In this document: positions 2,806-53,925 of the stretch, one piece after another | Position numbering within the stretch: the stretch's first letter is position 1 | How the letters are laid out: each line of letters begins with the position of its first letter | Assembly (NCBI RefSeq): GCF_900105305.1 | Contig: NZ_LT629765.1 | Coordinates: forward strand, 930,001-994,000 | Direction of reading: 5' to 3' | Origin: Corynebacterium timonense | GTDB taxonomy: Bacteria; Actinomycetota; Actinomycetes; Mycobacteriales; Mycobacteriaceae | Length of the DNA stretch: 64,000 nucleotides | Made by a program: the position numbers and the translations under genes | The notes under the pieces: generated by a model | Told to the model about the DNA's origin: nothing | Databases searched by the model: none | What the model saw: the letters and a program-made list of their open reading frames with translations, nothing else

Positions 2806-4047
2806 ATGCGTTCTTGGCCCACACCGCCCGTAGCCGACGTGCCGGGCGACCCTGTCGAACTCAGCCTCTACGACACCGCCGACCGCCGCGTCAAGGCTGT
2901 CGATGTCGCCCCCGACGCGAACGGGGAGGTGGGTATGTACGTCTGCGGGATTACCCCTTACGACTCGACCCACCTCGGGCACGCCGCGACCTACCTCACC
3001 TTCGATCTGGTGTACCGGCAGCTTGTGGCCAACGGCCACCGAGTCCACTACGTCCAGAACATCACGGACGTCGACGACCCGTTGTTCGAGCGCGCCGAGC
3101 GCGACGGCGTGGACTGGCGCGAGCTGGGCTCCTCGCAGATCGATCTGTTCCGCAGCGACATGGAGGTCCTCGGGGTCATCCCGCCGCGCGACTACATCGG
3201 TGCGATGGAGGCCGTCGACGAGGTCGTGGAGATGGTTTCCGTGCTGCTCGAACGCGGTGCCGCCTACCAGATTGATCACGGCGATATTTACGCCTCGATC
3301 GCGGCGACAGAGCAGTTCGGGTACGCCTCTAACCTGGATCGTGCCGAGATGGACGAGCTGTTCGCGGAGCGCGGCGGCGACCCAGAGCGTGAGGGCAAGC
3401 GCGACCCGCTCGACGCGTTGGTGTGGCGCGGGCACCGCGAGGGCGAGCCCGCGTGGGAGGCGCCCTTTGGCGCGGGCCGGCCAGGCTGGCACGTGGAGTG
3501 CTCCGCGATTGCCACCAACCGTTTGGGCCGCACCTTCGCGATCCAAGGAGGCGGCTCCGACCTCGCTTTCCCGCACCACGAGTTCTCCGCCGCGCACGCC
3601 GAGGCGGCCTACGGCGTCGACCGCATGGCGGGCCACTACGTCCACTCGGGCATGATCGCCCTCGACGGCACGAAGATGTCGAAGTCCCTGGGAAACCTCG
3701 TGTTTGTGCACTCGCTCACCGAGGACGGCGTCGAGCCGTCGGGGATCCGCGTCGCCCTGTTCTCGCAGCACTACCGCGACGACCGCGAGTTTTCGCCCGC
3801 GCTGGTCGACGACGCACGCGAGCGCCTGTCGCGCTGGAGGGCCGCCGCCGCGCAGCGCTCCAGCGAGGAGGAGGCGCTCGGGGTCGTCGCGCAGCTGCGC
3901 GAGGCCCTCGCTGACGACTTGGACACGCCGCGCGCCCTCGCCGTCCTCGACGCGCTCACCGGCGACCACGAGGGCATCGTCGCCCGCGCTGTCGATGGCC
4001 TCCTCGGCGTGCAGTTGGAACCGTCTTCGCGCACAATGAACGCATGA
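2806..4047 (+). CDS. mshC: Cysteine:glucosaminyl-inositol ligase of mycothiol synthesis
   Basis: MshC joins cysteine to GlcN-inositol with ATP, the third step of mycothiol synthesis in actinobacteria. It is a paralogue of cysteinyl-tRNA synthetase. The 413-aa protein has the zinc/HIGH-like region [42 protein letters not shown] (zinc ligands) and the KMSKS loop in [11 protein letters not shown]. It lacks the long tRNA-binding C-terminus of CysS, and its N-terminal [11 protein letters not shown] fits MshC. ATG at 2806 is favoured because a -10 hexamer lies 6 nt upstream. The 3' end overlaps the next gene by ATGA. Confidence 0.95.
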
Positions 4048-4424
4048 GCATCCGCGAGCAGTTCCAAAGCGACGTCGACGAGTTCATCGCCGACCTGACC
4101 ACCTTCGCCTCCGGCTCCTACCTGCGGGAGGAAGACAAGGAGCTGTGGGAGCAGCCCTTCGACCCAGAGGTACTTCCCACCCTGAAGCACATCATCGAGG
4201 CCTTCCTCGACGCGCTGGAGCTCCTCGGCGACGACCCCGAGGGCGAGGCCCTGTCCAAGGTTGTCGCCGCCTTCTACGACAACCTGCGCGAGTTCAACGC
4301 CGAGCACCACGATGCTGTGCTCGAGCCGGAAGAAAAGGCGGACCTGGAGTCCCTGGTCTTCCGCGCGGCGGCCGCGACCGGCGCGGACGACGAGGCTCTC
4401 AGCGATCTGCCGGAGTTTGAGTAG
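4044..4424 (+). CDS. Small acidic conserved protein
   Basis: The protein has 126 aa, is strongly acidic and is predicted all-helical ([18 protein letters not shown], then repeated Glu/Asp/Leu helices). No signal peptide, membrane segment or metal motif is visible. The start codon overlaps the mshC stop (ATGA), and the stop is only 3 nt before the next start, so it is translationally coupled inside the mshC run. I recognise it only as the kind of short protein conserved beside this locus in corynebacteria. No function can be assigned. Confidence 0.75.
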
Positions 4425-4427
4425 CCT

Positions 4428-5108
4428 GTGACACACCGAGGCCCGCGTGCCATCTTCTGGGACATGGACGGCACGCTCGTGGACACCGAGCCGTTGTGGG
4501 GGATTGCCACCTACGAGCTCGCGGAGATGCTCGGACGCCCGCTCACGCCCGAGCTCCGAGAAAAGACCGTCGGCGGAAGCTTCGCCAACACGTTGAACGT
4601 CTGCGCCGCCAACGCGGGCTACACGCTGCGCGACGGCGACTACGAGCGCTATCACGCCTGGATCTACGAGCGCATGGGGCAGCTGCTGGGCACCGGCCTT
4701 GAGCCCAACCCCGGGATACGTGGGCTTCTCACCTCGCTCGCGGACGCGGGGATGCGGATGTTCGTGACCACGAACACGGAACGCCAGCTTGCCGACGCCT
4801 GCATCGCCGCCATCGGCACCGACTTCTTCGTCGATTCCATTACCGCCGACGAAGTCTCGCGACCGAAGCCGGCCCCCGATATCTACCTCGAGGCCGTACG
4901 CCGCGTGGGCGAGCGCCCCGCGGACTGCCTCGTCGTTGAGGATTCGTGGGCAGGGATGAGCGCTGCCGTGGCCGCAGGCTGCACCGTGCTGGGCCTCGCT
5001 GCCGAGGTGCCCGACCACGTGGTTTCTTTCTCTCCCGAACGCTTCATCGGAGCGGAGGCTGCTGACGTGGACAGGTGGTTCGCCGCGGCCGCGCGGGGGG
5101 ATGGGTAG
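4428..5108 (+). CDS. HAD-superfamily phosphatase, beta-phosphoglucomutase/Gph-like
   Basis: The 226-aa protein starts at GTG 4428. HAD motif I is FWDMDGTLVDTEP (nucleophile Asp12, acid/base Asp14). Motif II is the Thr in VTTNTERQ, motif III is the Lys in VSRPKPAPDIYLEA, and motif IV is VVEDSWAGMSAA. A helical cap of about 60 residues sits between motifs I and II. This is the architecture of small-molecule phosphatases acting on sugar phosphates or phosphoglycolate. The substrate cannot be read from sequence. It precedes hisE by 11 nt, and a role as histidinol-phosphatase is possible but unsupported. Confidence 0.85.
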   Translation: MTHRGPRAIFWDMDGTLVDTEPLWGIATYELAEMLGRPLTPELREKTVGGSFANTLNVCAANAGYTLRDGDYERYHAWIYERMGQLLGTGLEPNPGIRGLLTSLADAGMRMFVTTNTERQLADACIAAIGTDFFVDSITADEVSRPKPAPDIYLEAVRRVGERPADCLVVEDSWAGMSAAVAAGCTVLGLAAEVPDHVVSFSPERFIGAEAADVDRWFAAAARGDG

Positions 5109-48927: not shown

Positions 48928-49730
48928 ATGCGCACAACGCTCGCGAAAACCGACTGGCAGGCACGGCAGGCTCACCACGAGCGACGCGCCGACCGGTGGG
49001 TCGGGCCCCACCGCGCGCGCCGCAGCGCCGGGACGACCCACCCCGTGTGGGACTTCCTCTTCGACTACTACCGGCTGCGCCCGAGCCACCTGAAGCGCTG
49101 GCAGCCGGGAATTGGCGTGGAGCTCGAGGACGCCGACACGTTTCGCGGGCGGCGCTACGTTGACGTCGATACGCATGGCACCGCCCGCCTGAACCTCGAC
49201 GAGCTGCTGGAGCACCGGGGTGCAGACCTGCGGCGGGTGCGCGACCTCGTGGCTCGGATCGGCGCGTCGCAGGCGCACTTCGATTGCTTCGGGCTCCACG
49301 AGTGGGCGATGGTCTACCGCACGGGCGAGCCGCGGCACGACCTACCGTTGCGGCTCGGCGCCGCGGGGACCGACGCGGTCGTGGAATCGCACCAGCTCAG
49401 GTGCAGCCACATCGACGCGTACCGCTTTTTCACCCCCGCGGCGCGTCCGCTGAATCTCACGGTGCTCACGCGCGAGGGCCAAGCGGACAACGACCAGCCG
49501 GGCTGCGTGCACGTGACGATGGACCTGTACAAGTGGGCGGCGAAGGCGGGCCCGATCGTCCCCGGTGACCTGCTGCTCGACTGCTTCGAGCTGGCGACGC
49601 GGGCGCGCCGGCTTGACATGGAGGCCTCGCCCTACGACTGCCGCGGCTTGGGCTTCGACGTCGTGCCCATCGAGACGCCGGAGGGCAAGGCGGAGTACGT
49701 GCGGCGGCAACGCGAGCTGAGCGACCACGC

Positions 49731-49738
49731 GCAACCGC
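49731..49738. repeat. Left 8-bp target-site duplication (GCAACCGC); right copy at 52440-52447
   Basis: The two copies are identical. One copy removed together with the element restores the interrupted reading frame exactly. Confidence 0.95.
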
Positions 49739-50125
49739 GGGTTAAGGGTCAAAATGTGTGTCTGACTCCGGCGTGTCGCGGGGTTAGATCTGGCCTTTTT
49801 GGATCCCGATTGAGTGGGTGTAGTGGGTGTCGATAGCGTTGTCGTAGAGGGCTGGTCGTCCTGTTTCGTGGTCGGCGTGGTTCTCGTTGTGGGTCAGGGT
49901 TGAAACTTTGGCGAGTTGGTCCTGACCCCAGTTGGACTGTCTGGCGATCTCGACTGGGTCGTCAGGCAGTTCTGTTTTCAGGTAAAGCCACCAGTCGAGC
50001 ATCCGGCGTTGATGCTCACCGGATCTGCCGCGATGGGTGCGGGCAAGCAGTTTCAGCTGGGCGTTGATCCCGCCTTCAAGACTGTGTCAAGCCCCGAGTT
50101 TTGTAGAGGGTCCTATTGTTGTCGA

Positions 50126-51067
50126 TTAGGCCGCTTGGGTGTTCGCGGCGGTGTATTCCTGATGGACCTGGCTCGGTGGGCGGTACCCCAGCGCCGAGTG
50201 CAAGCGGCGGTTGTTGTACCAGCCGACCCATGTCGACGTCGCGACGAGAACATCTCGCAGTGCCGGCCAGGTCCTACGGTCGATGAGTTCAGCTTTGAAC
50301 ACTGAGTTCAGCGCTTCTGCCATCGCGTTGTCGTAGGAGTCTCCCCGCGAGCCAACCGAAGCGATAACCTGCGACTGGGCCAAGGTCTCTCCGTAGACGA
50401 CCGACCTGTACTGCACGCCCCTGTCTGAGTGATGGATCAGACCGGAGACATCTTCACCGGCACGCAAGCGCGCTGACAAGGCCATGTCAAGTGCGTCTTT
50501 AGCCAGTGATGCTCGCATGTGGTTGGTGATCTGCCAGCCAACAATCTCCCGGGTATACGCGTCGAGGACGAACGAGGCGTACACCCACCCGGCACGCGTG
50601 GGGATGTACGTGATATCCGCGACCCACAGCCGGTTCGGCGCATCGACACAAAAGTCGCGCTCGACCAAGTCGACTGGGCAGTTATCGGGGGCAGCGCTGC
50701 GGGTGGAAGGCTTTTTCTTCCTGCGCCGGATACCACGGATGCCTTCGAGTGCCATGAGACGCTCGACGGTGCACCGGGCGACGTGACAGACATCGCCTCG
50801 GCGATTGACCTCGGCCCATAGTTTGCGCGCTCCATAGCAGGAGTAGTTGTCGTCGTAGATAGCACGCAAAGCTTTGCGTAGTTGTCGGTCGCGGATAGAT
50901 CGAGATGATTCAGGCCGGGATTTGTAGGCGTAGTAGGTGCTCAGGGCGATTTTCGCGTCGGTTGCCGCCAAGGCGCGAATAATCGGCTCGACCCCGAATT
51001 CCTCCCGGTTGTCGTCGATGAACCGGACGACTACGTGTGTGGGCGGTCGGGCTCCGCCGCGAAAAAA
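50126..51067 (-). CDS. IS3-family OrfB transposase (DDE integrase domain)
   Basis: After a -1 shift at 51061-51067 the frame continues FRGGARPPTHVVVRFIDDNREEFGVEPIIRAL and on through the catalytic core. The DDE triad is visible: Asp in WVADITYIPTRAG, Asp in IHHSDRGVQYRS and Glu in AMAEALNSVFKAELI. The C-terminus has WVGWYNNRRLHSALGYRPP, typical of the family. OrfB itself is undamaged, but it normally works as the OrfAB fusion and OrfA is frameshifted here. An independent start at 50971 is the only isolated ATG-type start. Confidence 0.9.
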   Translation of the reverse strand, partial: FFRGGARPPTHVVVRFIDDNREEFGVEPIIRALAATDAKIALSTYYAYKSRPESSRSIRDRQLRKALRAIYDDNYSCYGARKLWAEVNRRGDVCHVARCTVERLMALEGIRGIRRRKKKPSTRSAAPDNCPVDLVERDFCVDAPNRLWVADITYIPTRAGWVYASFVLDAYTREIVGWQITNHMRASLAKDALDMALSARLRAGEDVSGLIHHSDRGVQYRSVVYGETLAQSQVIASVGSRGDSYDNAMAEALNSVFKAELIDRRTWPALRDVLVATSTWVGWYNNRRLHSALGYRPPSQVHQEYTAANTQAA

Positions 51068-51343
51068 GCTGATGCTCTTTTCAAAATCTCGTTGGCGCGC
51101 TTCGCTTCAATCAGTTCAGCTCGCAGTCTGCGGTTTTCTGCTGCACAATCCACCGATTCAGCCGGGGTTGCCGCGCCGGATTGTTTATGAGCGCGGACCC
51201 AGCCGCGCAGAGTTTCCTTGACTGATTCCGAGCTCGACAGCGATGCGGGATATCGCACCACGAGACGTGTCAGGGTCAGCTTGCGCGTGCAGCACCAGTT
51301 CGATGGCGCGCTGCCTCAACTCAGGCGTGTACTTCGAGGGCAT
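51031..51343 (-). pseudogene. IS3-family OrfA, frameshifted
   Basis: From ATG 51343 the frame reads MPSKYTPELRQRAIELVLHA... through SRIAVELGIS and then stops at 51185 after 52 codons. The expected continuation, KETLRGWVRAHKQSGAATPAES...KRANEILKRASAFFAAEPDRPHT, lies in the next frame and ends at 51031. A net one-base gain (or two-base loss) near 51225 explains this. OrfA supplies the helix-turn-helix and leucine-zipper part of the transposase, so the element is probably not autonomous. Confidence 0.8.
51061..51067 (-). promoter_or_regulatory. Programmed -1 frameshift site (TTTTTTC) of the IS3 element
   Basis: In the OrfA frame the codons are GCT TTT TTC, which gives the canonical slippery string U UUU UUC. 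The -1 frame leads straight into OrfB. Confidence 0.75.
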
Positions 51344-52542
51344 GTGTAGGGCTCCTTTTCCACATCCCTACCCTCTATTAAACCCGGGGCGAACCAACTG
51401 TTAGTCGTCGGTTTGATCCGCCCGGGGTTGATCACACCAGCGGGTGGGTCGAGGTAGACAAACAACAAGTTGTTGCGCCACAGGTGGTTGAGGCTGTTGT
51501 AGGCCTTGCGGGTGCGCTCATGCGTCCACGACCAGGTGCGTTGTTTCGTCAATGGGTCGGTTGTCCACGTTTTCTGGTTCATCCAGTCGCGGTAGACGTT
51601 GCCGTATTCGTGGAGCTTGGCGCCCCACGCGGCCGCCTCATCAAGATCGGTGATCTTCGTGAGGTTAAGCGCGAGTTGGTAGATCGCTCGTCCAGCATCC
51701 GTGCGCGGGCGGGAGGTGGTGTAGCGGCGCACCACACGTTGGGCGTGGACAAGGCAGCGTTGGATCTTGGTGTTAGGCCAGCACTTTTTGATCGCGCTGG
51801 CTGCGCCTTGTCCACCGTCGATCACGGCGATCAGGGGCGCGGGGATGCGTTCACACAGTTGCTGGTAGTCGCGGGTGGTTTCGTGTGTGCACCAGTGCCA
51901 GGCGATGACGTGATCCAAGGTGGCGGCAACTATGAGACATCCGCCAGCGGTGTAGGTGCCGTCGATGAACACCTGGTCGTATACCCGCCCGGTATGCGCG
52001 AGTGTGGGATCGGGCACATCAATGAGCCAGCACCACGAAAACCGCCGTTTCATGGTGGAGTGGCTGATCCCAGCGTCTCCTGCGATCTGCCTCAGGGCGG
52101 TGGTCGATGTGCAGTGCTCGATGAATTGTCGAAACACCGCTTGGTTGGTGATATCGCTGCGGGTTTTGGTGGTTGATGCACCGCAGATTTTGCAGCGCCA
52201 CCGAGCGGTGCCCTTGGATGTGGTTCCGTTGCGTTTCATTTCCCCACCGCAGTGGCAGCGTGGTCGGTTCTTCGGCATTGAGCCACCACACCACCGGCTC
52301 CTACCACATCAACCACGCCACACCGGGGATATACGACCACAACAGCGGGTATATGCCCTTAAGGCATATACTTCCGGAAACCACAAAGGTCAGGCACCGG
52401 AAATCACCAATTCCGGACACACTTTTTGACCCTTAACCCGCAACCGCTGCGTCTGCGGCTGCTGTCGCTTCTCGACGCCGCGTTGGGCGATAAGATGGCA
52501 CGAAAGGTTCATTAGCACCAAGTTTCTCGAGGTGGTTCCCGC

Positions 52543-53925
52543 ATGGGTCGGCATTCCGACGGCACAAACAACTACTCACTGTCGCGCAGTGTGATCGCGG
52601 CGCTGATCATCGTCGTGCTCGTGATAGCAATGGCGATCTGGTACGTCGCCGCGCGCCCCGGCTCGACCACCGCGGACCACGAGGAGCCGGACTGCGTCGC
52701 GGGCGAGCTCGAGCTTCCCGTCGCCTCCTCCGACGAAGCGGTCGCGCGCAGCCTGAACGACGCCTACGCCGCGTCCCACCCCGTCGTCCGCGATTACTGC
52801 GTCACGCCGATCCTGGTGAGCGACCTGTCCGCCGCGGCCGTCTACGTCGGCTCCGACTCCCCCGCCACCGACCAGCTCCTCGAGCAGGCGGGGCGGACCG
52901 TCTCCGTCGCCGACGCGGAGCCCGTGGCTACGCAACCGGTGGGCGTGGCCGCGGACGTCGAGGTCGCGCGCGAAGACGTCGCTCTCGAGCAGGTCGCCTT
53001 CCCCACTGACGTTGACCCGGCGGTGTCGGCCGCGGTGGCGACCGAGCTCGCCGCCGGCGACGAGGACGCCGCGGCCGCGCTGCGCGACCAGCGCGTGCAC
53101 ACGGCCGAGGACGTCCTCAACGAGGACCGGTACGCCGCCACTACCCGCGACGGGTCCCCCGTCGGCTGGTTCTTCACCGAGCTCGACTCGTCCGTGTCCT
53201 TTGCGGCGCTGCCGCTCAACCAGACCGAGAGCGTGAGCGAGGACAAGGCCCGCGCCGGGCAGGACTTCGCCCGCTTCGCGGCCGAGAGCTTCGCCGGCGG
53301 CGACGCGCAACAGCCAGAAATCTCGGACACCGTGTGGGAGGCCGCGCTGCCGGCTACCGGGCAGGCACCGGCCACGCCGGCCGACGACGATGCGCCGGAA
53401 GCACAGGCCGCTCCCGAGGTGATGAGCACCCTGTTCCTTCTAGATACCTCCGACGCGATGTCGCCCTTCCTCCCGGCAGCAGCCGAGGCGATCGGCGAGG
53501 CCGCCCGGGGCGTCGCGGGCGCTGGCCATAGCGTCGGGCTGTGGAACTACTCCTCGCCGCTCAACCCGGGCGTGCAGAAGAGCTACCGCGAAAACGTCAT
53601 GCTCGGGCCGGCTGCGGAGGCTGTCGCTGCTGCCGCCGGACGCTTTAGCACCGGTGGGCAGCCGAACACGCGCGAGGCACTCAGCGCCGCCACCGGATAC
53701 GCCGCGGAGGTGCAGGGCCCCGTGCGCGTTGTGCTCATCACCACCGGGACCGCCGACTCGGGCGCCGCACTCCCCGAGATCGCCGGCGACGACGTGCGGG
53801 TCTCCGTTGTGCACATCGGGCCAAACGAACCTGACCCCGCAGTGGCGGATGTCGCCGAGGTTGTCACTACGGCGCAGACCGCCGAGGGGCTCAACGACGC
53901 CGTCGGTCAGGCCGTCGGCGAGTAG
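52543..53925 (+). CDS. Membrane-anchored VWA-domain protein
   Basis: The 460-aa protein has one N-terminal helix (VIAALIIVVLVIAMAIWYVAA, residues 19-39), so the bulk is extracytoplasmic. A substrate-binding-like segment (about 50-260) is followed by an acidic Ala/Pro linker. A von Willebrand A domain begins near STLFLLDTSDAMSPFLPAAAEAI, where the MIDAS motif D-x-S-x-S is altered to D-T-S-D-A. A second acidic site may lie in VGLWNYSSPLN. The gene starts just after the interrupted conserved gene. Function unknown; a surface binding role is inferred. Confidence 0.8.
   Translation: MGRHSDGTNNYSLSRSVIAALIIVVLVIAMAIWYVAARPGSTTADHEEPDCVAGELELPVASSDEAVARSLNDAYAASHPVVRDYCVTPILVSDLSAAAVYVGSDSPATDQLLEQAGRTVSVADAEPVATQPVGVAADVEVAREDVALEQVAFPTDVDPAVSAAVATELAAGDEDAAAALRDQRVHTAEDVLNEDRYAATTRDGSPVGWFFTELDSSVSFAALPLNQTESVSEDKARAGQDFARFAAESFAGGDAQQPEISDTVWEAALPATGQAPATPADDDAPEAQAAPEVMSTLFLLDTSDAMSPFLPAAAEAIGEAARGVAGAGHSVGLWNYSSPLNPGVQKSYRENVMLGPAAEAVAAAAGRFSTGGQPNTREALSAATGYAAEVQGPVRVVLITTGTADSGAALPEIAGDDVRVSVVHIGPNEPDPAVADVAEVVTTAQTAEGLNDAVGQAVGE

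Follow-up and report, generated by a model that had tools for sequence, protein, structure and literature searches.

The closest described relative of the element presented here is IS1249, an insertion sequence (IS) which flanks transposon Tn5432 in Corynebacterium striatum (PMC8304765). It has also been reported at a large scale that IS hotspots receive new ISs (PMC9208149, section 8); that section treats clusters of ISs, whereas here we deal with nesting at the level of single bases. We have analysed a stretch of 64,000 nucleotides from Corynebacterium timonense, which we will call the window. It corresponds to positions 930001–994000 of C1, the single contig of 2,633,085 bp which forms the chromosome. 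Its sequence has, near the end of a conserved gene, an IS1249-like element (IS256 family) which contains an IS3-family element. Stacks of this sort are ordinary; in this case natural pre-insertion states are preserved at both levels. The locus is a clean test case because one of these states is found in the same chromosome and the other one in a related genome. Very probably it was produced by two ordinary transpositions, first of the outer and then of the inner element. As pre-insertion states we have used natural uninterrupted sequences, instead of pieces rejoined in silico, and other IS copies have been counted within the fetched stretches of the same chromosome. The coordinates of all features are given in Table 1.

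The outer element shares with IS1249 (pTP10) a match to the NCBIfam IS1249 model (NF033544) and a zinc-binding N-terminus. The open reading frame (ORF) of its right arm scores 395.9 bits with this model (cut-off 300), and a database protein of 393 amino acids (aa) of the type found in the sibling copies (P0186) scores 527 bits. It is similar to IS1249 in length, and both have a target-site duplication (TSD) of 8 bp; a duplication of this size is the product of the staggered cut made by the DDE transposases of the IS256 family. The DNA identity with IS1249, measured over 99% of the right arm, is 75.4%. Since about 95% or more is usually required for an element to carry the name of a described IS, they are different ISs, so that the cautious label "IS1249-like" of the first-pass annotation was appropriate. 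In contrast with IS1249 in Tn5432, the outer element has no passenger gene and is interrupted by an IS3. Without the inner element and the second copy of its TSD it measures 1385 bp, as compared with 1389 bp in the intact siblings. Its ends are whole despite the insertion: GGGTTAAGGGTCAAAATGTGTG and GGGTTAAGGGTCAAAAAGTGTG are inverted with one mismatch in 22. The complete D-D-E transposase lies in one uninterrupted frame in three siblings, whereas in the window copy it is split by the IS3. Because the split falls just before the residue which we take to be the catalytic E, no active enzyme is expected from this copy, which could move only in trans. A consensus scan of positions 52150–52650 gave no sigma-70-like promoter directed outwards to the downstream gene.

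The inner element has the features of the IS3 family, as it had been labelled: orfB passes model NF033516 (288.9 bits, cut-off 160), domains HTH_21, rve and rve_3 are found in it, the ends (TGTCAAGCCCCGAGTTT and TGGTTCGCCCCGGGTTT) are of the TG...CA type, and TSDs of 3–4 bp are found where present. It differs from the family by its frameshifted orfA, and the copies in the same chromosome are diverged and mostly broken. Both orfA and orfB are open in two of the nine full-length copies of this chromosome; in the inner copy only orfB is open. Since the same frameshift is common to 5 of the 13 copies aligned, it has been either inherited or spread by gene conversion. For the same reason the inner element probably arrived with the transposase of another copy, or else was converted afterwards. 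A search of 72,556 plasmid records ("near" mode) gave no match with it.

Table 1. Features of the nested locus. Positions refer to the window, except those preceded by C1, which refer to the whole contig.
Feature	Position	Strand	Remarks
Host gene as it stands, ORF of 302 aa	48928..49836	+	270 native codons and 32 codons encoded by the outer IS
Left 8-bp TSD of outer element, GCAACCGC	49731..49738	+	Single copy GCAGCCGC in related genome G017
Outer IS1249-like (IS256-family) element	49739..52439	-	2701 bp with the inner IS3 and the second copy of its TSD
Left inverted end of outer element, GGGTTAAGGGTCAAAATGTGTG	49739..49760	.	
Outer transposase, 3' part (SLEGGINAQ... to stop)	49784..50083	-	99 aa, left arm translated alone; includes the presumed catalytic E
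Left 4-bp TSD of inner IS3, ACTG	50081..50084	+	Single in 5/5 sibling outer copies
Inner IS3-family element	50085..51396	-	1312 bp
IS3 orfB, open frame	50126..51106	-	DDE transposase; HTH_21, rve, rve_3
IS3 orfA region	51031..51343	-	Frameshifted
Right 4-bp TSD of inner IS3, ACTG	51397..51400	+	
Outer transposase, 5' part	51401..52278	-	Zinc-binding N-terminus and core up to ...KPTT
Segment with differing transposase N-terminal domains, window copy vs three intact siblings	~51960..52260	-	From sliding identity and protein split
Right inverted end of outer element, GGGTTAAGGGTCAAAAAGTGTG	52418..52439	.	
Right 8-bp TSD of outer element, GCAACCGC	52440..52447	+	
Displaced 3' end of host gene	52448..52515	+	Last 22 codons and stop; in frame, homologous to orthologue tails
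Downstream gene, 460 aa	52543..53925	+	Host-gene neighbour in G017 and C. senegalense; separated here by the insertion
Three intact sibling copies of outer element	C1:927212-928600, 2065553-2066941, 2236798-2238186		1389 bp each

We will start with the outer insertion. The IS1249-like element would have entered codon 271 of the conserved Corynebacterium gene, with duplication of 8 bp. The uninterrupted state is found in a related genome (G017), which has an intact orthologue of 292 aa in synteny, between the same two neighbours; the two proteins are 81% identical. The 5' flank of the window aligns with positions 3172–3925 of the G017 sequence (81% identity) and the 3' flank with positions 3918–4476 (80%). 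These two alignments overlap in 8 bp (3918–3925, GCAGCCGC), which are the single target at the place where the TSD is found in the window. It had been predicted that removal of the outer element would rejoin the host gene as HAQP/LRLRLL, with 292 aa, which is precisely the length of the G017 protein. The best relative of the gene is in C. senegalense. We submitted 91 loci from relatives to a script, which parsed 82 and not the other nine; the parsed loci correspond to 80 of 80 from the main search for relatives plus two repeats of the same genomes. The gene runs on into its native tail in all 82 of them. It is not universal in the genus, with a match (E ≤ 0.001) in 220 of 242 genomes.

The pre-insertion state of the inner element is found in the same chromosome. 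The left arm of the outer element appears at six places in the fetched stretches, the window copy included. In the five other copies the right arm adjoins it directly, with one ACTG. Three of these are intact, with an uninterrupted transposase frame which goes through the predicted junction and contains GRIKPTTNSLEGGINAQ; a length of 393 aa was read out for one of the three. The rejoined transposase proposed in the first-pass annotation (GRIKPTTN/SLEGGINAQ, 392 aa) agrees with this natural frame, since the window copy is one codon shorter near the start. The intact siblings have 8-bp TSDs of their own (GCAAAGGA, CAAACGGA and CCTTTTTC). As for the remaining two copies, that at 784 kb is also broken, without any 8-bp repeat, and that at 1574 kb is truncated. 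The IS3-family element would have entered the gene of the outer transposase, with duplication of 4 bp. The probability of finding by chance a match of 8 bp and another of 4 bp at the predicted ends is about 1.5e-5 × 3.9e-3. The limits given previously for both elements and their TSDs (GCAACCGC and ACTG) are all correct.

The order of the two events is less direct. It had been claimed that the TSDs fix it. They do place the IS3 in the outer element and the latter in the gene, but they do not establish that the IS3 came second, since movement in trans of an outer copy already loaded with the IS3 fits them just as well as entry of the IS3 once the outer element was in the gene. We infer that the outer element came first because the nested junction is found nowhere else. 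Its left side, with up to 2 mismatches allowed, appears in only one of 242 genomes, its own, and only once. This rarity favours the outer element as the first to arrive.

The age of the insertions has to be considered separately. The right arm of the outer element has 3 differences in 866 bp with a copy in G017 (99.65% identity), with 2 private substitutions, which suits a young insertion or a recent exchange between species. The G017 copy (G017:C1:621394-625259) is also interrupted by other DNA, 866 bp into the arm compared. Against this, the left arm and that G017 copy disagree at 12 of 346 positions; within the first 88 bp of this arm there are 7 private substitutions and one indel, so that it looks like a separate tract with a history of its own. 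The inner IS3 family looks old and its sequence alone gives no sign of recency: the window copy is at most 97.9% identical to any of the copies aligned from the same chromosome, and a TSD is present in 4 of the 12 two-ended copies examined there. The case for recency is thus based on the right arm of the outer element; the earlier suggestion that both insertions are recent is supported by this arm, and neither by the left arm nor by the inner IS3 sequence. No single-insertion state of this locus was seen among the genomes compared, which include no strain of the same species. A further point concerns the host protein: R272 and L275, two residues beyond the break which do not vary among 38 relatives, are absent from the new tail, and this loss speaks against a harmless exchange of tails.

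A different order of events would result if the IS3 had entered the outer element elsewhere and the pair had then moved here as a unit, carried in trans by an intact sibling. The TSDs would be identical in this case, the ends of the outer element are intact, and three intact transposase frames are available in the genome. However, the single occurrence of the nested junction, in only one of 242 genomes, does not favour a unit of this sort. The N-terminal domain of the intact siblings is also different (63% identity), so that their transposase may not act on these ends, and the trio of IS256-like copies at a common site which we describe below shares its right-hand flank and gives no example of unit transposition. 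We consider this history unlikely. Two ordinary transpositions, the outer one first, are still the preferred explanation.

The other two possibilities have far less in their favour. In a genome rich in ISs, with near-identical repeats near the contig ends, which may be hard to place there, an assembly could join unrelated IS copies into a chimera. Nevertheless the TSDs of the two elements are exact, and natural sequences agree with the two pre-insertion sites on either side. The outer copy can be distinguished by private sites from every sibling, and so can the inner one, with 6 private sites when compared with 8 full-length copies of the same chromosome. Given the exact TSDs and the private variants we have rejected a chimera, which appears highly improbable. 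It is also barely conceivable that the outer element forms an arm of a composite transposon with a passenger gene, similar to Tn5432. Such a composite is suggested by the arrangement of its relative IS1249 in C. striatum (PMC8304765), by another IS1249-like copy found 51 kb away in inverted orientation and by an Erm-type gene in the genome. But the window copy and the one 51 kb away have each an 8-bp TSD of their own, which indicates that each of them was inserted alone, and the distance of the Erm-type gene is about 780 kb to the nested element and about 580 kb to the closest IS1249-like copy identified. The composite was rejected because each of the three intact siblings, like the window copy, has a TSD of its own and no passenger is seen. 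The Erm-type gene, at C1:199897-200634, is a second gene for a ribosomal RNA adenine methyltransferase; it passes the broad Erm model with 278.6 bits (cut-off 212).

The comparison of the window copy with its three intact siblings has shown a peculiarity in the N-terminal part of the transposase. When identity is measured in blocks of 60 bp from the right end, it is 88–95% in the first 180 bp, falls to 58–76% in the next 300 bp and rises to 95–100% beyond. In the protein, residues 1–105 are 63% identical and the remaining part of the right arm 98–99%. Related copies are found in other genomes. Those in G100 and G236 match the window type with 76–100% identity, depending on the segment, the N-terminal part included; they resemble it over 161–400 bp, while neither type is favoured over 401–480 bp. 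The copies in G119, G187, G227, G174, G080 and G033 resemble instead the sibling type over 301–480 bp, and hardly differ over 191–300 bp. We have set aside the idea that the window copy is the recombinant, since the G100 and G236 copies match its type. The intact siblings are more likely to be the recombinants, and in the simplest reading of these sequences the sibling type would have taken its N-terminal part from another lineage. The left ends in this chromosome also differ: two window-type copies have GGGTTAAGGGTC and the three siblings have either GGGTTAAACGAC or GGGTTATACGAC. An exception is the copy of the window type in G017, which has GGGTTAAACGAC, with a sequence of the right-end type directly ahead of it.

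These features suggest, as a tentative and rather doubtful proposal, that in Corynebacterium the N-terminal domain of the transposase, which binds DNA, passes as a cassette with sharp borders from one IS1249-like element to another. If this were true, the exchange could change which ends are served by a transposase and hence which broken copies, the nested one being an example, remain movable in trans. It bears on the way defective copies stay mobile and on how the specificity of ISs changes. In the literature on IS1249, nested insertion, IS256 chimeras and IS mosaics, neither this locus nor a domain exchange in IS1249 is described among the matches listed, which are mostly titles and beginnings of abstracts.

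The host gene had been considered interrupted. Its last 22 codons are indeed displaced, but the ORF is not shortened, since they are replaced by 32 codons of the IS, and the protein keeps 70 of the 72 residues which are invariant in 38 relatives (counted without the window protein). We have modelled the 302-aa ORF as it stands with AlphaFold2. The mean predicted local distance difference test score (pLDDT) is 89.6, as compared with 90.4 in an intact relative, and the order of helices is similar. The last helix ends at residue 284 in the window protein and at 291 in the relative, and a tail of low confidence is found from residue 289. The protein with its exchanged tail may be impaired or may still work. 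Orthologues of the host gene have in NCBI the name "3-methyladenine DNA glycosylase". Searches of Pfam (E ≤ 0.001) and NCBIfam (E ≤ 0.01) assigned the protein to no family, and Foldseek found no PDB fold at E ≤ 0.001 for its AlphaFold2 model, which is confident and mostly helical. The name is thus not backed by a match to any known glycosylase family or fold, and it looks unsupported. No defence-system family was found either for this protein or for the downstream one. In an automatic annotation the transposase genes would appear broken here and the host protein would have 302 aa, with a foreign tail; beyond annotation the nested IS matters little.

Nesting is common in this chromosome. The IS1249-like copy at 784 kb (C1:783935-789107) is a deeper nest, with an insert of 3,780 bp which looks IS21-like. 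The best model for its istB-like ORF is the IS21 helper, although its score, 139 bits, is below the cut-off of 200. This insert contains in turn an IS256-like element (338 bits, cut-off 150) and another IS3 copy. In the fetched stretches we have found 11 full-length copies of the IS256-like element, of which 9 (query included) are identical. Three copies share one site, which leaves 9 independent sites; five of these are inside other ISs. If the IS content is taken as about 123 kb (88 hits of 1.4 kb, although part of the hits are fragments and the figure leaves out other IS families), the probability of at least five such sites by chance is about 2e-5; it becomes 1.5e-4 for 180 kb. An equal excess would result from selection against insertions in genes. 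The accumulation of ISs inside ISs is similar to that reported for IS hotspots in PMC9208149.

The three copies which share one site (C1:51, 2615105 and 2626626) belong to near-identical stretches of 4.4–5.1 kb (99.7–99.8%) found near the contig ends, in C1:1-4500, 2613000-2619500 and 2625000-2631500. All of them carry the same nest, an IS256-like element within one of IS3 type, and have their right-hand flank (about 2 kb) in common. Transposition of the nested pair as a unit was rejected for this trio, as the similarity continues into the right-hand flank; it corresponds to a duplication or rearrangement, or to an assembly problem. Two other copies of the IS256-like element (C1:1755106-1756559 and 880634-882087) are found in open coding sequence; the peptides which flank them, recognised by eye, appear to be MetX and an aminotransferase.

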